Source of the DNA: Desulfobacca acetoxidans DSM 11109
Lineage (GTDB): Bacteria; Desulfobacterota; Desulfobaccia; Desulfobaccales; Desulfobaccaceae
Assembly (NCBI RefSeq): GCF_000195295.1
Contig: NC_015388.1
Coordinates: 186,001-250,000 of the forward strand
Direction of reading: 5' to 3'
DNA length: 64,000 bases
A model generated the notes under the pieces. It had not been told where the DNA came from and did not search any database. It saw nothing but the letters and a program-made list of their open reading frames with translations. The stretch's first letter is position 1; each line of letters opens with the position of its first letter. Shown one piece after another: positions 53,054-63,917 of the stretch. The translations under genes and the position numbers were made by a program.

Positions 53054-54964
53054 ATGAACGGGGAAATAACAGTGGATGCTCACAGTGATTATATTCGATC
53101 ACCTGGCCTGATCCTTGATTTTAGCAGACATAAATATCTCAAATGGCTCAATGTGCTGCGCAACCCTTTGGAAAGAATCATCTGTCTCAGACAGGTCAAT
53201 CGCGTTTTGACGCAGGCAGCGGCGTCGACGGATGAATGGTCTTTCTTATCGCACCTTCTGAATTCATTGAACGTCCACTGTGAATTCTCAGAAACGGAGA
53301 TCCCACGGATTTCCAGCCGGGGGGCGCTGGTGGTTGTGGCAAATCATCCCTTTGGAGGGTTGGAGGGGGTCATCCTGGCAGATCTGTTGGGGAAAGTTCG
53401 TCGAGATGTCAAGATCATGGCCAATTATCTCTTGCAGCCTGTGACCGTGCTGCAGAATCTGTTTATTTATGTGGATCCCTTCGGCACTAAGCGATCTGTA
53501 CACGCCAATCTCTCCGGTCTCCGAGAGGTCCTGGCCTGGCTGAAACAGGGAGGGGTTGTGGGGGTCTTTCCGGCCGGGATGGTATCCCACTTGAGCTGGC
53601 CAAAACTCAAGGTTACCGATCCGGCCTGGAACCGGAATGTGGCTCGCCTGATCAAAAGAAGCCGGGCAGATGTCCTGCCGGTTTTTTTTGACGGCCACAA
53701 CAGTCCTCTGTTTCAATGTCTGGGGCTGGTGCACCCGCAGTTGCGGACGGCGCTGTTGCCGAGAGAGTTTCTAAACAAAAAAGATAAGGTCATCCGAGTT
53801 AAGATCGGCCAGGCGATAGCCCATGAGAGATTATCGACCCTGGGGGATGACGATAAGATCATGGCCTACCTGCGCCTGCGTACTTATATGTTACGGGAAA
53901 GCATATCGGCTGGGGATGGCAGAGCCGGTCGGTTTCATCTGACCAGGCCATTTAGGAAAACCTTGCCCGAAGCAATTATTCCCAGCCCGGAAGCGGCAAC
54001 GATAGTTCGGGAGGTTAAGGCACTGCCCTCCTCTCAGATCCTGGTCCACAGCCGTCCGTATCTGGTCGGCTATGGTTATGCGCCGCAGATTCCCAACCTG
54101 CTGCAAGAGATCGGCCGTCTGCGGGAAGTAACCTTTCGGCAGGTCCGGGAGGGAACCGGCAAGTCCATAGACCTGGACCGGTTTGACGCCCATTATCTTC
54201 ATCTGTTCCTCTGGGAACAGGAGAGACAGGAGGTGATCGGGGCCTACCGACTGGGGCCGACAGACCGGATAATCAGCGGCTTAGGTGGCCGCGGTTTGTA
54301 TACTGCCACTTTATTTGATTACCACCAGCGATTTTTGGCCGAGATCAATCCGGGGTTGGAGTTGGGCCGCTCGTTCGTACGGCTGGAGTATCAGAAGAAT
54401 TATCAAGCCTTGCTGCTCTTGTGGAAAGGGATTGCCCAGTTCGTCGTGCGCCATCCCCATTACCGCCTGTTGTTCGGCCCGGTATCAATCAGCAATGAGT
54501 ATCATGATTTCTCCCAGGGATTGTTGGCCACCTGGTTAAGTATGCACACTTTCCTTCCTGAACTGGCCCGCTTCGTCAAACCCAAGACACCTCTCATCTT
54601 TAAAAAATACCGGGAGCAGGACCTGCGGTTGGCCCTCGCCGGTACGCAGAAGGTGGAAGAACTCTCGGAATTGTTGGCCGATGTCGATCCAGGCCGCCAC
54701 GGAGTCCCCATCCTCTTGAAGCAGTATTTAAAATTGGGGGGGAAGCTGTTAGGCTTCAACCGCGACCCCAACTTCAGCCAGGTCCTGGACGGTTTGATAT
54801 TGGTTGACCTGACCCTAACACCTCCCCAAGTCTTGCAGCGCTACATGGGTAAGGCAGGTCTGGCGGAATTTTCGGCTTACCATAATTTAGGCGTCGACCA
54901 CCACCCTTCTAGCCCGACAAAATTCGCTGATCCGCCTTTCAGCATGTCAGCGGTTCATCCCTAA
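53054..54964 (+). CDS. olsF: Two-domain acyltransferase, OlsF-like (ornithine lipid synthesis)
   Basis: A 636-residue fusion. Residues about 60-290 are a PlsC/LPLAT-like O-acyltransferase: VVVANHPFGGLEG (N97-H98; the usual HxxxxD Asp is Glu here), PAGMVSHLSW and PVFFDGHNS. Residues about 330-610 are an OlsB-type N-acyltransferase (GNAT-related): VGYGYAPQIPNLLQEIGRLREVTFRQ, LELGRSFVRLEY, LFGPVSISNEYH. This order matches bifunctional OlsF enzymes, which make phosphorus-free ornithine lipids by N- then O-acylation. The accepted amino acid is not readable. Its 3' end overlaps the first repeat of a putative Pho box for the next operon. Confidence 0.82.
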   Translation: MNGEITVDAHSDYIRSPGLILDFSRHKYLKWLNVLRNPLERIICLRQVNRVLTQAAASTDEWSFLSHLLNSLNVHCEFSETEIPRISSRGALVVVANHPFGGLEGVILADLLGKVRRDVKIMANYLLQPVTVLQNLFIYVDPFGTKRSVHANLSGLREVLAWLKQGGVVGVFPAGMVSHLSWPKLKVTDPAWNRNVARLIKRSRADVLPVFFDGHNSPLFQCLGLVHPQLRTALLPREFLNKKDKVIRVKIGQAIAHERLSTLGDDDKIMAYLRLRTYMLRESISAGDGRAGRFHLTRPFRKTLPEAIIPSPEAATIVREVKALPSSQILVHSRPYLVGYGYAPQIPNLLQEIGRLREVTFRQVREGTGKSIDLDRFDAHYLHLFLWEQERQEVIGAYRLGPTDRIISGLGGRGLYTATLFDYHQRFLAEINPGLELGRSFVRLEYQKNYQALLLLWKGIAQFVVRHPHYRLLFGPVSISNEYHDFSQGLLATWLSMHTFLPELARFVKPKTPLIFKKYREQDLRLALAGTQKVEELSELLADVDPGRHGVPILLKQYLKLGGKLLGFNRDPNFSQVLDGLILVDLTLTPPQVLQRYMGKAGLAEFSAYHNLGVDHHPSSPTKFADPPFSMSAVHP

Positions 54965-55106: not shown

Positions 55107-55370
55107 ATGGATATCTTCAAAAATGTTTTTAAAGGATCACTCAGCAGTATCCTGGTCGTCGCCGGTGTAGCCTTAGTGGCGCCCATTGCCCTGCCGGTGG
55201 TAGCTTCCATGGCTCGACCGATTTTCAAAGGGATTATTAAAGGCGGCATGGCCCTGATGGATACCATGCAGGAATTTGTCGCCGAGACGGGCGAGCAGAT
55301 TAGCGATCTGGTGGCAGAGGCCAAAGCGGAACGGGCTGCCGCCGCCAGTGCTGCCACCGATCGTAGCTGA
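55107..55370 (+). CDS. DUF5132-like small membrane protein
   Basis: An 87-residue protein from ATG 55107 (a GTG at 55101 is possible). One hydrophobic segment with many small residues (SSILVVAGVALVAPIALPVV, residues about 10-30), then a second Gly-rich amphipathic part (FKGIIKGGMALMD) and a charged helical tail ending AAAASAATDRS. It resembles DUF5132 proteins, which often neighbour HMA2-domain proteins and P-type ATPases. It is first under the Pho-box-like promoter and 21 nt upstream of an HMA2 protein. Function is unknown. Confidence 0.7.
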   Translation: MDIFKNVFKGSLSSILVVAGVALVAPIALPVVASMARPIFKGIIKGGMALMDTMQEFVAETGEQISDLVAEAKAERAAAASAATDRS

Positions 55371-55391
55371 TGGCAAAGTGAGAGGCTAGTG

Positions 55392-55982
55392 ATGAACATC
55401 AGGGTGGTTCACGCCCTTCCCGGTCGGGTACGTCTTAAGATCGCCCCAATGATACGCCATCCGGTCCTGGCTCGGGAGATTGAGGATCGGGTTAAAGGGG
55501 CGCCCGGTGTCACGGGCGTCGAGTGCAATCCGGTCACCGGCAGTCTGGTAATTCTCTATGAGCCGGCCACTAAGATGGCAAAGGATACCATACGCTCCCT
55601 GACGGAGGTCTTCAAAAGCATATCTCCGGAGTTGACCGGGAAACAGGTTGCAAACCTCTTGAAGCCAAGTCTGCCCCCCGAGTGTCCGGACGTCTCTCCT
55701 TATGCAGCCAGTATCACCCAGTTTTTTGGCGCTTTAAATGCAGGTGTGAGTAATATCCTGGGAGGTTTGGACCTAAAGGTCTTATTGCCGACCACACTCT
55801 TTGTTTTAGGCATAAACCGTATGATTGCCGAAAGAGCCACTCCACCGGCGTGGTATAATCTGCTATGGTTTTCTCTGGCAACCTTTATGCTGTTTCATCC
55901 CACCAAAACAAGTTCTTTAGAACAGGCAAGCGTCCTACATGAAACCATGGAAGGAATGGCGACACTGGAAATGGCCGAATGA
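55392..55982 (+). CDS. HMA2-domain membrane protein
   Basis: About 196 residues from ATG 55392 (AGAGG 6 nt upstream). The N-terminal 75 residues form a ferredoxin-like HMA2 domain: HALPGRVRLK, a helix, then VTGVECNPVTGSLVILYE. It lacks the CxxC of copper chaperones. After a linker come two or three hydrophobic segments (about 120-170; LPTTLFVLGINRMI, NLLWFSLATFMLF). Four proteins in this locus share the GR(V/I)R and N-x-x-TG signature, including the P-type ATPase N-terminus, so they may interact through this domain. Confidence 0.75.
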   Translation: MNIRVVHALPGRVRLKIAPMIRHPVLAREIEDRVKGAPGVTGVECNPVTGSLVILYEPATKMAKDTIRSLTEVFKSISPELTGKQVANLLKPSLPPECPDVSPYAASITQFFGALNAGVSNILGGLDLKVLLPTTLFVLGINRMIAERATPPAWYNLLWFSLATFMLFHPTKTSSLEQASVLHETMEGMATLEMAE

Positions 55983-56133
55983 TTATCCCCCGCGGCCGCG
56001 GCGTTCACGGGCTTTCCCTAACTATCCGCAGAGTGTAAGCGGGATCGGAAGAACTTTTCTTAACAACATCTCTATGAACCGACGAGCTTTCCTGGTTCAG
56101 GGGAGCCAGTTTTTATTTCAGGCGTTTATGTTT

Positions 56134-56499
56134 TTAGATGATAGCGGTTACTAATCGGGTCAGGGCCGCTTCCATCATCGTCTGGGCTACTGAGGCGACA
56201 ACTCTGTACGGCAGGGAACTAAAGCCATCTTGAGTGCTGGTAGCCTCCTGCCACCCGGGTGTTATCTGGCGGAGATAACCCGATTCCTGAAGAGCCCGCA
56301 GAATATGGTCTTGACCGGTTTCCTGAGGATTATAGTAGATCAGGACGCTGCCAGTTATGTGGTTGGCCTTAATTGATTCGATGCCCGGTTGCCATTGCAC
56401 CTTTTTTTCCAGCTCCTCGGCTCTGATCGAAGAACCTTTGATCTCTGGGACCTTAATGCGGATGCGACCTGCTAGTGAATGGATATAGTCCGGGTGCAT
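56134..56499 (-). CDS. HMA2-domain protein, opposite strand
   Basis: About 121 residues from the ATG at 56499, which is 9 nt after GGAGGA; longer starts to 56520 exist. The domain reads HSLAGRIRIKVPEIKG then GIESIKANHITGSVLIYYN, again without Cys. A C-terminal extension (residues about 80-121) includes a helix ending LTRLVTAII. It is the only minus-strand member of the set and faces the next HMA2 gene across a 460-nt gap. Confidence 0.7.
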   Translation of the reverse strand: MHPDYIHSLAGRIRIKVPEIKGSSIRAEELEKKVQWQPGIESIKANHITGSVLIYYNPQETGQDHILRALQESGYLRQITPGWQEATSTQDGFSSLPYRVVASVAQTMMEAALTRLVTAII

Positions 56500-56982
56500 G
56501 TCCACCATTCCTCCGTTCATGTTTTATCCGTTATTACTTCATTATTATTCGTGAACGTTAATCCTCAATCTAGATTCTGTTTATATTGTGCTAGAGCGAA
56601 TTTTTTTATGGAGGTTCGTTTTGCAGTCAAGTTAGAAATATTGTGTCATAGAGGTGGTCCTCCTTGAAGCTGTTTTTTTCAGGAAATGGTTTATGAAGTC
56701 TTGACAACATCGAATTATGAGAAATCTGTTTGTTTATGATGAGTATGCACCAAAGAGGTAAGGGAGGTGATATGTTAAGTGGTAGGCGACTACACGGGGG
56801 ATTTCGTTCGTTTGGGTGTAATAGAGCCTGTTTCATAACCCTAAGTACTGATGCAGTAATCAATCCTGACCGGAAGGCTGGTCGATCAGATAACGAGCAG
56901 TGATCTAAAGAGTGTTTTTCGGACGGCTGGAGACATTTAAAGCTCTCTAGACAGTCGATCATCCTGGTGAGGCAAAGATACC
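56500..56982. other. Divergent intergenic region with a possible 43-residue ORF
   Basis: Between two divergent HMA2 genes. A frame at 56772-56903 has a very strong ribosome binding site (AAGGGAGGTGAT, one base before the ATG in its full form) and encodes a basic 43-residue peptide starting MLSGRRLHGGFRS; the spacing is tight, so it is only a candidate. TTGACA occurs near 56700 with no good -10. The rest shows nothing. Confidence 0.4.
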
Positions 56983-57273
56983 ATGGACTTAAACGGCATT
57001 CAGATTTCACATTTTATCCCAGGGCGGGTCAGGTTGAAATCTCTTCTGATTAAGGGCAATCTGAGCCTGGCGCAGAAAATCATGGAATTATTTTCGGCTA
57101 TCCCAGGTATCAGAGAAGTGGAGGCAAATCATCTGACCGGCAGTCTGTTGGTGGTGTATGACGCCAAACAGTTGCGGACACCTGATTCTACCCACCAACT
57201 GGAGGAGGCTCTCAAGTTTTTGGCTCCGAACCTGGATCATGACAGGGTTGCCTGGCTATTGCAACGGCTTTGA
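56983..57273 (+). CDS. Stand-alone HMA2-domain protein
   Basis: A 96-residue single-domain protein: HFIPGRVRLKS at the start, REVEANHLTGSLLVVYD in the second half, and a C-terminal helix LDHDRVAWLLQRL. No Cys, no membrane segment. It resembles the N-terminal domain of the nearby P-type ATPase and could exchange with it, as copper chaperones do with their pumps, though the metal-binding Cys are missing. The next gene starts 122 nt downstream. Confidence 0.75.
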   Translation: MDLNGIQISHFIPGRVRLKSLLIKGNLSLAQKIMELFSAIPGIREVEANHLTGSLLVVYDAKQLRTPDSTHQLEEALKFLAPNLDHDRVAWLLQRL

Positions 57274-57395
57274 CAGTCTTCGAGTCGTGCTTATTCCCTT
57301 ATCCTTTAGGAAACAGCAATGAGGTGTTTTTCTTATACATGCCTAATTCGATTGATACAGCCTCTCGCCAGAGCAGAGCGGGAAAGGAGAAAGCG

Positions 57396-58121
57396 ATGAA
57401 TCAGGAGGAAAAAATCCAGGGCTCCGGTCTCGGAGAGATGGTGCAGAACACCGGCGCCTTTGTCAAGGATGGGGTCGTCAACAGCCTCAAAGGGCTGAAT
57501 GAAATCGAGAATCAAATCGTCACCGTGGCCAGGAATAGCGTTACTGATGCACTGCAAGCCGGCGGGGCGGTAGCCGGCAGCGTCATCGAGGTGAGCCGGG
57601 ATGTGGTCAAAGGAGCTCTGAAGGCCACCGAAGAGGTGGGCTATGGACTCCTTATGACTACCAAGAACGCGGCAAAGGGCATTGTTTTAGGGATCGGCGA
57701 CGTCGGTGGAGACGTCATTAACACCGCCGGTCAGGTAGCCCAAGGAGCCGTTAAAGGCGCCTCGGAAGTAGGCACTGATGTTGCTCTGGTAGCCCGTCGG
57801 ACGGTTGACGGCGTTATCGAAGCGGTACAAGAAGTTGGCGGCAATGTCGGCGGTGCCGCTACGGCTGCGGTTAATGGCGCCATTGAGGCGGCCGGTTCGC
57901 TCGGCTCTGCCGCTACCAGAAACGTCACGGTCTTCCTGGTTGGAGTAGTCGATGGTGTCAAAGACGTGGTCAGCGCAGTCCTCCCCAAATCCTGGAGCAC
58001 TTCCGAGGCTAACAGCGAAGAGCTGTCCGAGAGTCCTCAGTCAAAACCGAAAGTGGGAAGGGAGTCCGTCAAGTCGAAGGAGGTTTCGGCGCCGATGGGA
58101 AAGCCAACTGCGGTCTCTTAG
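57396..58121 (+). CDS. Protein with seven tandem 22-residue amphipathic repeats
   Basis: About 241 residues from ATG 57396 (GGAAAGGAG upstream). Residues 24-177 are seven consecutive 22-residue units, for example RNSVTDALQAGGAVAGSVIE, GQVAQGAVKGASEVGTDVAL and RRTVDGVIEAVQEVGGNVGG, sharing a G or A at fixed places, V at 4 and an EVG-type core. Twenty-two (2 x 11) residues is the helical repeat of apolipoproteins, synucleins and LEA proteins, which lie flat on lipid surfaces. A last hydrophobic stretch (VFLVGVVDGVKDVVSAVL) and a Ser/Lys-rich tail follow. Lipid binding is inferred from repeat length. Confidence 0.75.
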   Translation: MNQEEKIQGSGLGEMVQNTGAFVKDGVVNSLKGLNEIENQIVTVARNSVTDALQAGGAVAGSVIEVSRDVVKGALKATEEVGYGLLMTTKNAAKGIVLGIGDVGGDVINTAGQVAQGAVKGASEVGTDVALVARRTVDGVIEAVQEVGGNVGGAATAAVNGAIEAAGSLGSAATRNVTVFLVGVVDGVKDVVSAVLPKSWSTSEANSEELSESPQSKPKVGRESVKSKEVSAPMGKPTAVS

Positions 58122-58191
58122 CAGTTGGGGTTGCCTCAGGGTCATTGGCCAGCCCTCGTGCTGATTCGCCGTCAAACAGAGATTCTGCCTG

Positions 58192-58218
58192 TTGGGGCGA
58201 ATCTTGTATTCGCCCCAA
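58192..58218. repeat. Perfect hairpin before the P-type ATPase
   Basis: TTGGGGCGAA, 7-nt loop, TTCGCCCCAA: a 10-bp perfect inverted repeat 70 nt after the repeat protein and 28 nt before the ATPase ATG. No T-run, so it may be an attenuator or mRNA stabiliser rather than a terminator. Confidence 0.7.
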
Positions 58219-58245
58219 GCTGCTTATGTGTTTGTACAATACGTT

Positions 58246-61200
58246 ATGATCCAGGTTGTCCACGCAGAAGTCCAGGGGAGAGTTCGATTTCATATTCCCG
58301 AACTCTACCGTTGTGAGTCCCTGAAAAAATTTCTTCAGGAAAGGCTGTCCCGGTATCGCGGGAATGGTATCTCTTCGTTTTCTCCCAATATTCTTACCGG
58401 CAACGCCCTTGTCTGTTTCAACACCGACAATAGCCCGGAAACCATCGGCCTCTTGTTGGAGCAGTGCCTCCGGGAATATCACGCCTCAACCGGATCACCG
58501 CAACCTGATCCAAAAACCGGGAAGTCGGTCATTGACCGGCAGGTTCAAGATGACTCTTTCCCTTCGCCCCCCACCGTGGGCCAGGGCGAACCGGTGCCTA
58601 CGTTTGCCTCAGCCTGGAGAGAACAGGAAATAGCACCTTGGCATACGCTGGAGACCGAAGAGATCTTGGCCAGGTGGTCGGTTTCTCGGGAAACCGGCTT
58701 GGCTCAGGAAGTAGCGCAGGGAAACTACGAAAAATTCGGACCCAATGCTCTAAGCGAACCAGAGCCGCGTTCAGGTTGGGAGATCTTCATTAGCCAATTC
58801 AAATCACTCCCCGTGGCTTTGTTGAGTGCCGCCGCCGGCCTCGCCGTCATCTCCGGTGGGATTCTGGACGCCGTCCTGATCATGGGAGTGGTAGCGGTGA
58901 ATGCGGGGATCGCCTATAAAACCGAAAGTGAGGCCGAAACCACCATCCAATCTCTGAAAAACCTGATACGGCCCACTGCCCAGGTTATCAGAAATGGCGA
59001 TCTGCAGGAGATTGCCGTTGAGGGTGTGGTTCCGGGAGATTTATTGTCCCTTAAGCCCGGTACCTATATTGCGGCCGACAGCAGACTGGTGGAGGCCGAT
59101 CGACTCAGCATCGATGAATCCGCCCTTACGGGTGAGAGTCTACCAGCCTTGAAGACAACCCAAGTCCTAAAGGCGGAAAATATCCCCTTAGGCGACCGGA
59201 CCAATATGGTCTATCGAGGGGCTATGGTAACCGGCGGCCAAGGCCTGGCGCTAGTGGTGGCTACCGGCCGGTACACCGAAATTGGTAAGCTGCAGACCTT
59301 GGTGGAGGAGGCGGTTGCCCCGGAAACACCTTTGGAAAAACAGTTAGGGCGGGTAGGCGACGAACTGGTGCTGCTGTGTTGCGGCATCTGCGCTCTGGTC
59401 TGCGGCATCGGCCTGCTGCGGGGTTTTGCCCTGCTGCAAATGGCCAATACGGCCGTTTCGTTGGCTGCGGCCGCAGTGCCGGAAGGCCTGCCGACCGTCG
59501 CCACCACCACCCTGGCCCTGGGCGTCAAGAACATGGAAAAGCATCAGGTCCTCATCCGGCGGCTGGAGGCGGTGGAGACCCTAGGTTGCCTCCAGACCAT
59601 CTGCCTGGATAAAACCGGTACAATTACCAAAAATGAGATGACCGTAGTCAGAATCTATGCTGGCGGACGCGTGTTCCAGTTTAACGAAGAGGATCTCCCT
59701 GCCGCGGTTCACCAAATTGCCTCGAATGGCCACGAGTTCGCCCAATTAATCCGAATGGCGGCATTGTGTAACGAAACTGAAATAGACCGGGCCGAGAATC
59801 GGTATGTGCTTTCGGGATCGGCCACCGAAAAGGCCCTGGTACAGTTGGCTATCGATCTTGGCATCGACGTCCTCGACCTGAGACGCCGCTATCCGCTCCT
59901 CCGGGTCAATCATCGGTCCGAACAGCGGCCTTTTATGACTACGTATCATGAAACGGCCACTGGCGACAAATTGATGGTTCTAAAAGGCAGCCCCCTGGAT
60001 GTCCTGGCTATGTGTGATACCTACTTGAAAGAAGGCCAGCGACTGCCGCTGAACGTTCGGCAGCGACTGCAGATCGAAACTGAAAATGACCGCATGGCGG
60101 GCGACTCCCTGCGGGTGCTCGGGGTAGCGGTCTATCACGGAGAGATAAACGGCAATGGCCTGGATGCCGGAAACGATCGGATCGACCGAGGGTTCACCTG
60201 GCTGGGAGTCACCGGCATGGCTGATCCCATCCGGGAAGGGGTGCACCAACTGGTGTCAGATTTCCACCGGGCTGGCATCCGGACCGTGATGATCACCGGT
60301 GATCAGAGCCAGACTGCCTATGCCATCGGTAAAGAGCTTAATCTGAGTCAAGGTGAGCCTCTGGAGATTTTGGATTCCACCCACCTGGACGCCATGGCGC
60401 CCGAGACCATCAAGGCCCTGGCTCAGCGGGTGCACATCTTTGCCCGGGTCAGTCCAGCCCATAAGCTGCAGATCGTGCGCGCCTTGCAGAGTGCCGGGCA
60501 GGTAGTGGCCATGACCGGTGACGGCATCAACGATGGTCCTGCCCTCAAGGCCGCCGAAGTGGGTATTGCCATGGGACACTCCGGCACCGATATCGCCCGA
60601 GAAGTGGCTGACGTAGTTTTAAAAGAAGACAACCTGGAGGCCTTGGTCGTCGCCATCCAGGACGGCCGCACCTCCTACAACAACATCAAGAAATCGGTAC
60701 ATTTTTTTCTCTCTACCAATATCAGTGAGATCATGGTAACCTTTATGGCCTTGGCGGCAGGTTGGGGTACGCCCCTGAATACCATGCAGCTCCTCTGGAT
60801 TAATCTGGTCTCGGATATCTTACCTGGGCTGGCCCTCACCATGGAGGCTCCCGAACCGTCCGTCCTGGAACGTCCGCCCCGGCCCACGGGCGAGCCTATC
60901 TTTTCTGGTGATGAGTACTGGAGTATAATGCGGGAATCTGCTACGCTCAGTGCCGCGGCCCTAAGTGCCTATGGCTACGGGCTGATGCGTTACGGTATCG
61001 GAGCGAGGGCCGGCGCACTGGCTTTCAACAGCCTCACTATCGCCCAACTCCTGCATGCCTTTAGCTGCCGTTCGGACCGGCAGAGCGTCTTCCGCGGAAA
61101 CTTGCCGGCGAATCGATTCCTTACCCTGTCAGTCGGCGGCTCCATCCTCCTGCAGGTCTTGGCCATGTTCACCCCGGGATTGCGCAGCCTCCTTGGTATA

Positions 61201-61284
61201 GGTGCCATGAGTCTGACGGACGGCGTGGTTATCGCCGGTACATCTCTCATGCCTCTGATAATTAACGAATTAATCAAGAAATGA
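58246..61284 (+). CDS. P2-type cation-transporting ATPase with N-terminal HMA2 domain
   Basis: A 1012-residue pump. Residues 1-80 are an HMA2 domain (EVQGRVRFHIPE, NILTGNALVCFN) without Cys. The P-type core follows: LTGESLP, DKTGTITKN with the phosphorylated D455, MTGDGINDGPALK (D759) and ten membrane helices. Ion-site residues are PEGLP in helix 4, NISEIMVTF in helix 5 and LWINLVSD in helix 6, which match the Ca2+/Mn2+-type P2A pumps (Ser replaces Thr in the last). So a divalent cation exporter is likely, not a copper pump. No ribosome binding site is clear; the TTG at 58192 would read through the hairpin. Confidence 0.88.
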   Translation: MIQVVHAEVQGRVRFHIPELYRCESLKKFLQERLSRYRGNGISSFSPNILTGNALVCFNTDNSPETIGLLLEQCLREYHASTGSPQPDPKTGKSVIDRQVQDDSFPSPPTVGQGEPVPTFASAWREQEIAPWHTLETEEILARWSVSRETGLAQEVAQGNYEKFGPNALSEPEPRSGWEIFISQFKSLPVALLSAAAGLAVISGGILDAVLIMGVVAVNAGIAYKTESEAETTIQSLKNLIRPTAQVIRNGDLQEIAVEGVVPGDLLSLKPGTYIAADSRLVEADRLSIDESALTGESLPALKTTQVLKAENIPLGDRTNMVYRGAMVTGGQGLALVVATGRYTEIGKLQTLVEEAVAPETPLEKQLGRVGDELVLLCCGICALVCGIGLLRGFALLQMANTAVSLAAAAVPEGLPTVATTTLALGVKNMEKHQVLIRRLEAVETLGCLQTICLDKTGTITKNEMTVVRIYAGGRVFQFNEEDLPAAVHQIASNGHEFAQLIRMAALCNETEIDRAENRYVLSGSATEKALVQLAIDLGIDVLDLRRRYPLLRVNHRSEQRPFMTTYHETATGDKLMVLKGSPLDVLAMCDTYLKEGQRLPLNVRQRLQIETENDRMAGDSLRVLGVAVYHGEINGNGLDAGNDRIDRGFTWLGVTGMADPIREGVHQLVSDFHRAGIRTVMITGDQSQTAYAIGKELNLSQGEPLEILDSTHLDAMAPETIKALAQRVHIFARVSPAHKLQIVRALQSAGQVVAMTGDGINDGPALKAAEVGIAMGHSGTDIAREVADVVLKEDNLEALVVAIQDGRTSYNNIKKSVHFFLSTNISEIMVTFMALAAGWGTPLNTMQLLWINLVSDILPGLALTMEAPEPSVLERPPRPTGEPIFSGDEYWSIMRESATLSAAALSAYGYGLMRYGIGARAGALAFNSLTIAQLLHAFSCRSDRQSVFRGNLPANRFLTLSVGGSILLQVLAMFTPGLRSLLGIGAMSLTDGVVIAGTSLMPLIINELIKK

Positions 61285-61365: not shown

Positions 61366-62559
61366 ATGAAAAAAGACTTCATGTTTACTTCCATGTCTGT
61401 GACCGAGGGGCATCCGGACAAACTCTGTGATCAGATCAGCGATGCCATTGTAGACGCCTACCTGGAACAGGATACCTACGCCCGCATCCGGGCCGAATGC
61501 GCCGTATCCACCTCGATCCTGTTTATTTCCGCCCGCTTCAGTTCCACCGCCAAAGTCGATATTCCGTACGTTGCCCGGAAGGTCATCAATCAGATCGGCT
61601 ATGTGGAGCATGACTTTGACGCTAAGTCATGCAGCGTGCTGACCAGCTTGCAGGAATTTCCGCCCGATGAACTTACTATCTTTAAAGAACAGAAGCTTTC
61701 AGAAGAGGAGTTGGAAAACCTCCCAGGCCGACATCAAGTAACCGTCTTTGGTTTTGCCTGTGATCATACCCCCGCCCTGATGCCGCTGCCTATCTGGTTG
61801 GCCCATAAACTGGCTAAAAGAATCATTAAGGCCAAACGCCATAAGGACATCCCCTATCTTTCTCCGGATGCCGCTACCCAAGTTGGTGTGGAGTTTCGCA
61901 ACCGTCGTCCTTTCCGGATTCATAGTATCACTATCATTGCCAGTCAGAATCGGCCAGTGACCATTCCGGCGGCAAGATTAGCGGCTGACATCAAAGAACG
62001 AGTTCTGCTCCCGGCCTTTGCGGATGAAGAGATCAAACCCGATGATCAGACGATAATATACATCAATCCGGTGGATCATATTATGGTCGGCGGTCCGGCG
62101 GTGCATTCCGGCCTTACCGGACGTAAGAATGCCATTGACACCTACGGGGAGTACTCCCGTCACAGCGGCGCTGCCCTGAGCGGCAAAGACCCCTTGCGCA
62201 TCGACCGGGTGGGGGCCTATGCGGCCCGCTATGCCGCCAAGAATGTCGTGGCCGCCGGACTGGCGGCGGAATGTGAGGTACAGCTCAGCTACTCCATCGG
62301 CCGCTCCCGGCCGGTAAGTATCCAGGTAGAGACCTTCGGTTCCGGCAAGATCGCCGATTCCAAGATTGCCGCGCTGTTAGAGCAGTATTGCGAATTCCGA
62401 TTGGCTGGTATCCTCAGAAACTTTAACCTGAGATTCCTGCCGGCCTTGACTAAAAACGGTTTTTACCGCAAACTGGCGGCCTACGGCCACGTAGGTCGGC
62501 TGGATCTTGAACTGCCCTGGGAAGCCACCGACAAAAAAGAATTGTTCAGTAATCCCTAA
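61366..62559 (+). CDS. metK: S-adenosylmethionine synthetase, divergent form
   Basis: Makes SAM from methionine and ATP. From ATG 61366 (GGGAG upstream) it has 397 residues. SVTEGHPDKLCDQISDAIVD (ATP site), HSGLTGRKNAIDTYGEYSRHSG, GKDPLRIDRVGAYAARY and VETFGSGKI are conserved. The flexible loop that normally reads GDQG is changed to GRHQV in front of FGFACDHTP, and the strand after the N-terminal motif is shortened, so this is not the common bacterial MetK. It is 206 nt before btaA, whose product uses SAM; I infer it supplies lipid synthesis. Confidence 0.9.
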   Translation: MKKDFMFTSMSVTEGHPDKLCDQISDAIVDAYLEQDTYARIRAECAVSTSILFISARFSSTAKVDIPYVARKVINQIGYVEHDFDAKSCSVLTSLQEFPPDELTIFKEQKLSEEELENLPGRHQVTVFGFACDHTPALMPLPIWLAHKLAKRIIKAKRHKDIPYLSPDAATQVGVEFRNRRPFRIHSITIIASQNRPVTIPAARLAADIKERVLLPAFADEEIKPDDQTIIYINPVDHIMVGGPAVHSGLTGRKNAIDTYGEYSRHSGAALSGKDPLRIDRVGAYAARYAAKNVVAAGLAAECEVQLSYSIGRSRPVSIQVETFGSGKIADSKIAALLEQYCEFRLAGILRNFNLRFLPALTKNGFYRKLAAYGHVGRLDLELPWEATDKKELFSNP

Positions 62560-62765: not shown

Positions 62766-63917
62766 GTGTTTAAAGGCACGGCGCAGCAATTTTTTGACCT
62801 GATTCACGGACATCGCTTGATCTATAATGCCTGCTGGGAAGATCCGAGGATAGACCGTCAGTTGCTCAGATTGGAGCCGCAGAGCGAGCTGGTGGTCATT
62901 ACCAGCGCCGGTTGCAATATTCTGGATTATCTCCTGGATTCGCCTAAAGAAATTCATGCCGTGGATGTCAACTATCGGCAGAACGCCCTGCTGGAGTTTA
63001 AACTGGCTCTCTTCGCCAGGGGTAATTTTGAAGACCTCTTTGCCCTGTTCGGGAATGGGGGGATTGAGAACTATCAAGAGATTTACCGGTCGGTGCAGGA
63101 AGATTTATCACCCGCCGCCAGGAAATTTTGGGATAGGAAAATCAAATACTTCAGCCTGGGGGGGGTAAGAAGGTCCTTTTATTGGCGGGGGGCGGCTGGC
63201 GATTTCGCTTGGCTGATGCGGCTCATCCTGTTTGGCAGGGCAAAAAATAGCCAGACGGCGCTTGAATCCTTCCTCAACAGCAAGACCCTGGAGACCCAAA
63301 GGCGTCGCTACGAGCCACTGGGGAAAAAGCTCCACCACAGAGCGGTTTCCTGGCTGATTCGCCAGCCCTGGTGCCTGGCACAGGTGGGGGTGCCGAAAGC
63401 GCAGATAAATCTTCTGAATCGGACCCACCCGCAGGGTATAAACGGATTCGTTCAGGAAAAAATACGGCGCGTCATGACCGAAACCCCTATCCGGGAGAAC
63501 TATTTCTGGCGGGTTTACCTTACCGGTTCCTACATCCCGGAATGTTGTCCGAACTATTTAAAGCGGGAAAATTTCCGGCAGATTCAGGCCCAGATCGCAA
63601 GGGTCAAACTCTATAACAGCACCTTAACAGAATTTTTGAAGAGGCATCCAGGAAGCTACAGCCATTTTGTCCTACTGGATCACCAAGATTGGCTGGCCCG
63701 GCATCAACCCCAGGCCCTGGAGGAGGAATGGCAGTATATCTTCCACAACAGCCGTCCCAGGGCAAAAATCCTGATGCGGTCAGCAGGCCTTGAGTTGGAT
63801 TTTTTGCCTCCCCGAATACGGTCCCGGCTGCGCTTCTTTCCAGAACGAACCTTCCCGTTGCACGCCCAAGATCGGGTAGGAACCTACGGCAGTCTCCACC
63901 TGGCCCAGGTACAATAA
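62766..63917 (+). CDS. btaA: SAM:diacylglycerol 3-amino-3-carboxypropyltransferase (betaine lipid synthesis)
   Basis: A 383-residue BtaA/DUF3419 protein. It moves the aminocarboxypropyl group of SAM to diacylglycerol, giving diacylglycerylhomoserine, the precursor of the phosphorus-free lipid DGTS. IYNACWEDPRIDRQLLRL, VVITSAGCNILDYLL and IHAVDVNYRQNALLEFK at the N-terminus are the family's SAM site; YIPECCPNYL and FVLLDHQDWL are later signatures. AAGGAG lies 6 nt before the GTG start. The stop overlaps the next gene's ATG (TAATG), showing tight coupling to the methyltransferase. Confidence 0.93.
   Translation: MFKGTAQQFFDLIHGHRLIYNACWEDPRIDRQLLRLEPQSELVVITSAGCNILDYLLDSPKEIHAVDVNYRQNALLEFKLALFARGNFEDLFALFGNGGIENYQEIYRSVQEDLSPAARKFWDRKIKYFSLGGVRRSFYWRGAAGDFAWLMRLILFGRAKNSQTALESFLNSKTLETQRRRYEPLGKKLHHRAVSWLIRQPWCLAQVGVPKAQINLLNRTHPQGINGFVQEKIRRVMTETPIRENYFWRVYLTGSYIPECCPNYLKRENFRQIQAQIARVKLYNSTLTEFLKRHPGSYSHFVLLDHQDWLARHQPQALEEEWQYIFHNSRPRAKILMRSAGLELDFLPPRIRSRLRFFPERTFPLHAQDRVGTYGSLHLAQVQ

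Follow-up and report, generated by a model that had tools for sequence, protein, structure and literature searches.

Desulfobacca acetoxidans DSM 11109 is a sulfate reducer that comes from anaerobic sludge. The subject of this analysis is a gene cluster on its chromosome (3,282,536 bp; PMC3156406), situated in a 64,000-nucleotide stretch (positions 186001-250000) that was analysed as a whole and is called here the window. The genes follow each other in the order DUF5132, an HMA_2 protein with a transmembrane (TM) part, two further HMA_2 proteins, a repeat protein (REP), a P2A-type ATPase with an N-terminal HMA_2 domain, and MetK2, a paralog of S-adenosylmethionine (SAM) synthetase. The original prediction, made from the letters of the window, had described the first six, and all of these are real and lie where it placed them; however, it drew the locus one gene short, as the unit also includes the MetK paralog at 61366-62559, the most constant partner of all. 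Left out with it were the phosphate-uptake genes found near relatives of the cluster. The genes, in the numbering of the window, are:

55107..55370, plus strand: DUF5132 protein, 87 aa (PF17195, 4e-10), the first gene in relatives too
55392..55982, plus strand: HMA2a, an HMA_2 domain with a C-terminal hydrophobic (membrane) part, 196 aa (PF19991, 9e-17, and alignment)
56134..56520, minus strand: HMA2b, an HMA_2 protein encoded opposite to the other genes, 128 aa (PF19991, 2e-10)
56983..57273, plus strand: HMA2c, a single HMA_2 domain, 96 aa (PF19991, 6e-15; AlphaFold2 (AF2) model, pLDDT 93)
57396..58121, plus strand: REP, 22-residue amphipathic helix repeats, 241 aa (hydropathy moment, lags, AF2 helices)
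58246..61284, plus strand: P2A-type cation ATPase with N-terminal HMA_2, 1012 aa (profile matches, solved relatives, site residues)
61366..62559, plus strand: MetK2, SAM-synthetase paralog without a methionine site, 397 aa (family homology, residues, tree)

The pump is likely to start at ATG 58246 rather than at TTG 58192, and the repeat protein at ATG 57396.

The gene set is a conserved operon and not a chance arrangement, because its members adjoin each other with high regularity and at short distances. Among 297 genomes drawn from the phylum, DUF5132 occurs in 20, REP in 23 and both in 17; the DUF5132 loci, read with their flanks, are syntenic, and in 17 of them a MetK paralog directly follows the pump (one locus cut by a contig end being counted besides). 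A search with a REP profile returned 127 loci in named genomes, 80 of which were kept for neighbourhood counts; some near-identical loci common to both surveys are part of the counts. The ATPase adjoins REP in 64 of the 75 loci with room for it, and MetK2 directly follows 49 of the 50 ATPases with room, with a median intergenic gap of 0 bp; the gap between DUF5132 and HMA_2 is 3 bp and that between REP and the ATPase 19 bp. HMA2b has a counterpart in relatives, either in the corresponding position or a few kb off. The REP loci belong to Desulfobacterota, Nitrospirota (including Nitrospira and Candidatus Manganitrophus), Planctomycetota (Brocadia) and Methylomirabilota, and occur also in Thermodesulfatator and in metagenome-assembled genomes labelled Alpha- and Betaproteobacteria; plasmid-borne REP was looked for and none was found. 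A neighbourhood survey had been proposed along with the original prediction, with random gene order in relatives named as the counter-evidence; the order turned out to be non-random.

The ATPase is PMR1/SPCA-like. TIGR01522 is its best TIGR match (613 bits, below the cut-off of 798), PF00689 and PF00690 are present, and its closest solved relatives are the Ca2+(Mn2+)-ATPases human SPCA1 and Listeria LMCA1 (E ~1e-147), with which it shares intact site-II residues. In SERCA numbering, assigned by motif, 66/66 pump homologs share E309, N768, E771, N796, D800 and the phosphorylated Asp. Ser or Thr prevails at the T799 position, and Gly, Ser or Ala at the E908 position in M8, which is followed by an invariant Gln. 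Thus, the Ca2+ site residues that led to the proposal of a Ca2+/Mn2+-type P2 pump are indeed kept, and the predicted site is best called site-II type, so that Ca2+ or Mn2+ would be the transported ion. On the other hand, SPCA/PMR1 and LMCA1 differ from the operon pump in lacking its N-terminal HMA_2 domain, its residue, mostly Gly/Ser/Ala, in place of Glu908 with the invariant Gln, and its fixed operon partners. The genome of D. acetoxidans encodes four P2 pumps, and HMA_2 is found only on the one from the operon. In the manganese oxidiser Candidatus Manganitrophus (L080:10748-13653) the HMA_2-P2A pump is divided between two reading frames of 797 and 189 aa, which reflects either a sequencing error or decay.

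MetK2 is full-length homologous to methionine adenosyltransferases (MATs; E 1e-92 to solved ones), and the protein of D. acetoxidans scores 357 bits with TIGR01034, above the cut-off. It keeps the part of the active site that handles the triphosphate and the metal: in E. coli MAT numbering, assigned by motif, H14, D16, K17, E42, K245, K265 and D271 are invariant in 68/68 MetK2 sequences, and K165 is kept in 62, with Ala or Ser in the other 6, that of D. acetoxidans among them. In the E. coli enzyme methionine is bound by Gln98, Asp238 and Glu55 (PMC1282579; PMC3853416). All the methionine contacts are kept in 18/18 canonical and 6 viral MetKs, whereas in MetK2 Glu55 is kept in 0/68 (R in 55, Q in 7, V in 5, H in 1), Asp238 is replaced by His in 68/68 and Gln98 is lost in 64 and kept in 4. 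Moreover, K269 is replaced by Arg in 68/68, and in 68/68 the second residue after the Lys of GHPDK is a Cys. In the tree, from which four MetK2 duplicates were left out, MetK2 forms a clade separate from bacterial MetK (support 100/100), whose stem measures 1.23 substitutions per site; viral contigs searched with MetK2 yielded only ordinary MetKs with the methionine site kept. A separate canonical MetK is present in all carrier genomes checked but G236, which is 95%-complete. Since the methionine contacts are lost and the carriers have a canonical MetK elsewhere, MetK2 has very likely left SAM synthesis; hydrolysis of ATP or polyphosphate, adenosylation of another acceptor and sensing of nucleotides are its candidate roles. 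The family of MetK look-alikes is large, and the label of SAM synthetase is probably wrong for genes of this kind, because that of D. acetoxidans passes the curated metK model while its methionine site is gone.

The four HMA_2 domains of the cluster, on three separate proteins and on the ATPase, all carry the GR(V/I)R and N-x-x-T-G motifs and none has CxxC, just as the original prediction had it, and among the N-terminal domains of the 66 pumps GRxR is found in 66 and CxxC in 0. The match of PF19991 to the N-terminus of the D. acetoxidans ATPase (2e-6, 28.5 bits) falls just under the 30-bit cut-off. The AF2 model of HMA2c has a beta-beta-alpha-beta-beta-alpha, ferredoxin-like topology, and its fold matches include MerP and HMA domains of Cu-ATPases, with weak E-values (about 0.01). 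The modelled fold is like that of the HMA metallochaperones, from which the operon domains differ in that the CxxC metal site is gone. A second locus with HMA_2 domains was found in D. acetoxidans (L056:3409-14491, i.e. G000:C1:1125000-1143000). It contains FeoB, a DtxR/FeoA fusion, FeoA, two P1B pumps with HMA_2-like N-termini, an HMA_2 protein, a MamC-like protein of 125 aa (54 bits, below the cut-off), a Gly/Pro-rich TM protein and small TM proteins; it looks like a ferrosome-type iron cluster, and GRxR is present on a P1B pump there as well. FezB-like HMA_2-P1B pumps also stand beside the P2A cluster in L038, L041, L042/L064 and L050/L096. In one of these (L041:3-11929) two HMA_2-P2A pumps, an HMA_2-P1B pump and DUF5132 share a single locus, as if HMA_2 were a tag moved between pump types.

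Because the HMA_2 domains have no metal ligand pattern and GRxR-HMA_2 is shared with the P1B pumps of the iron cluster, a role as a tag or in assembly is no less probable than one in delivering metal; the earlier idea of a chaperone-pump set stays conjectural. Adaptation of the set to something other than soft metals agrees with the missing Cys motif, the Ca2+/Mn2+-type pump and the non-random gene order across several phyla. Given the HMA_2-P1B pumps of the iron cluster in the same genome, we propose that HMA_2 may be a docking tag that ferrosome-like pump assemblies have in common. In ferrosomes, iron is stored within a membrane, and both FezA and the transporter FezB are needed (PMC12574912). 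The fez system (FezA, the P-type ATPase FezB, the cytochrome FezC) resembles the operon in combining a P-type ATPase with small membrane proteins, and a FezB-like iron cluster with HMA_2 pumps is present in the same genome and sometimes adjoins the P2A cluster. However, the operon pump is of the P2A type with a Ca2+/Mn2+ site, not a FezB-type P1B pump, and the unit lacks a FezC-like cytochrome, FeoB or an iron regulator and has REP and MetK2 in addition. A check of FezB via plasmid records returned only generic P-type ATPases.

REP, which had been noted as a repeat protein, has no Pfam match and exhibits a periodicity of 22 and 11 residues: in all homologs the autocorrelation of hydropathy peaks at 22, 44, 11 and 33 residues, and at a lag of 22 self-identity lies above the 95% level of shuffled sequences. 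Its helical moment in D. acetoxidans peaks at 98.0-98.5 degrees, the value of an 11/3 helix. Helices of this kind (98.2 degrees), built of 11- or 22-residue repeats, are the pattern of apolipoproteins and synucleins, and such repeats act at membrane surfaces or as coats. The AF2 model has helices of 18-19 residues every 22 residues, and a fold search returned mainly designed helical repeat proteins, which adds no function. By analogy with apolipoprotein A-I, alpha-synuclein and perilipin, REP could be a membrane-surface or coat protein and a putative lipid binder; the likeness is one of periodicity only, as REP is bacterial and we claim no sequence homology. The 11/3-helix signature supports the earlier suggestion of a lipid-binding-like protein. 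Eight loci (L110, L117, L119, L130, L132, L133, L140 and L143) have no pump directly after REP, some of them retaining DUF5132 and HMA_2 genes; therefore, REP may also work with its partners independently of the pump. The DUF5132 protein, whose assignment is upheld by the Pfam match, consists of one TM helix (19-residue hydropathy peak of 2.7) and then an acidic Ala/Glu-rich helix.

Genes of phosphate uptake recur around the cluster. PhoU and/or PstS with PstB (PstSCAB-PhoU) lie within ~10 kb of 14 of the 80 loci, 1.13 Mb in all, where ~0.5 PhoU would be expected if there is one per 2-3 Mb, a comparison that overstates the independence of the cases, as many loci are related. These neighbours are of two sequence types and occur in both orientations, and PstSCAB-PhoU is found near two further Desulfobacterota loci, L039 and L047. 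CorA directly follows MetK2 in 8 loci. Acidocalcisomes and volutin granules hold Ca2+ and phosphate in store and have both cation pumps and transport of phosphate (PMC4263762, PMC3198990). The likeness to the handling of Ca2+ and phosphate with a cation pump is functional guesswork from the genes, and the annotated recurrent neighbours, which include no proton pyrophosphatase or polyphosphate kinase, differ from acidocalcisomes in this respect.

We tentatively favor the view that the five-gene operon (DUF5132, HMA_2-TM, REP, HMA_2-P2A ATPase, MetK2) builds a membrane-associated device that clears Ca2+ or Mn2+ from the cytosol and most likely delivers it to a ferrosome- or acidocalcisome-like, lipid-bounded compartment, in which the cation would be stored together with phosphate. 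The P2A pump would load the cation into the compartment, DUF5132 and HMA_2-TM would use HMA_2 docking domains, in which GRxR would stand in for the metal-binding CxxC, to bring the pump and its partners together in the membrane, and REP would cover the membrane surface as an amphipathic coat of 22-mers. MetK2, encoded straight after the pump gene, would bind triphosphate but not methionine and serve as an enzyme or sensor for ATP or (poly)phosphate. Such a compartment appears more likely to us than a plain efflux pump. It is possible, albeit doubtful, that the operon specifies an undescribed bacterial organelle or membrane platform, patchily distributed in several anaerobe-rich phyla, which stores Ca2+ (or Mn2+) with phosphate and has re-purposed a MAT-fold enzyme from SAM synthesis to work on ATP or polyphosphate.

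Several points weigh against the storage device. The data show the conservation of the operon, the identity of its domains, the intact cation site, the lost methionine-site residues, the repeat period, and PstSCAB-PhoU and CorA as recurring neighbours, and the compartment, the ion, docking by HMA_2 and the chemistry of MetK2 are inferred; the REP model is of moderate confidence (mean pLDDT 62); the linkage to Pst-PhoU is mostly found in Nitrospirota and is partly inherited, and no Pst-PhoU lies within the flanks of the D. acetoxidans locus. The kinship with ferrosomes presumes an R-rich, GRxR type of HMA_2 motif in FezB and other Fez proteins. Membership of DUF5132 in the PacL family was set aside after a scan of 20 members, which DUF1490 and DUF6110 did not match up to an E of 1.

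This last result also counts against the main rival, a plasma-membrane platform like the PacL "effluxosome", in which a DUF5132 scaffold would cluster the HMA_2-tagged Ca2+/Mn2+ pump for export with no internal compartment. PacL proteins of mycobacteria cluster P-type (Ctp) ATPases encoded with them, and their acidic AE motifs are needed for pump stability (PMC13043812). DUF5132 shares the layout of one TM helix and an acidic AE-rich helix, in which E60, D67, E71 and E75 are invariant, and it adjoins an HMA_2-P1B pump in L050/L096; however, the PacL pumps transport heavy metals, and REP, MetK2 and the phosphate neighbours, the former two missing from the mycobacterial systems, are left unexplained, so that we regard this reading as possible and rather doubtful. 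It is unlikely, in turn, that MetK2 adenosylates a different, perhaps anionic nucleophile and that the operon serves both to produce a new adenosylated compound and to employ it at the membrane, with the cation pump supporting the reaction or its product. The retained triphosphate and metal residues, combined with R/Q/V/H at 55, H at 238, R at 269 and the Cys after GHPDK, and the single clade on its stem would fit this chemistry, but the same residues would suit a hydrolase of ATP or tripolyphosphate, or a sensor of nucleotides, just as well, and the operon offers no substrate candidate. By far the least probable is that MetK2 is a second SAM synthetase that feeds neighbouring lipid genes (BtaA-like DUF3419), the pump set being unrelated. 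DUF3419 does follow MetK2 in the relatives of Desulfobacca, and the TIGR01034 score would suit a synthetase; however, DUF3419 is near only about 4 of the 80 loci, as opposed to the near-constant position of MetK2 after the pump, and a canonical SAM supply was set aside because the methionine site is lost and the genome has another MetK.

In open-access text we found no paper on DUF5132 and none that links MAT, a P-type ATPase and storage; judged on that text, with the key ferrosome papers (Grant 2022, Pi 2023) outside its scope, the operon appears to be undescribed. It represents a widespread unannotated gene set tied to the handling of cations and phosphate, suggests that the GRxR HMA_2 domain generally marks pump assemblies of the ferrosome-like kind and is not a metal chaperone, and offers testable predictions on bacterial storage of calcium or manganese.

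The unit in D. acetoxidans is flanked by two lipid-gene stretches (53054-54964 and 62766-63917). One of the flanking genes encodes a bifunctional acyltransferase that resembles OlsF/GlsBA (its OlsF score of 410 bits is below the cut-off), and the other a DUF3419 protein, presumably of the BtaA type, next to which a likely methyltransferase gene stands in relatives; together they may serve to make membrane lipids without phosphate. A zinc-ribbon protein of ~99 aa that resembles InsA of IS1 is encoded in 19 of the 80 loci (e.g. L068:6616-6903), usually beside an opposite-strand HMA_2 gene (123 aa), and is a possible regulator. Genes resembling low-molecular-weight phosphatases or arsenate reductases lie near the cluster in L101 (16261-16686) and in 8 other loci.

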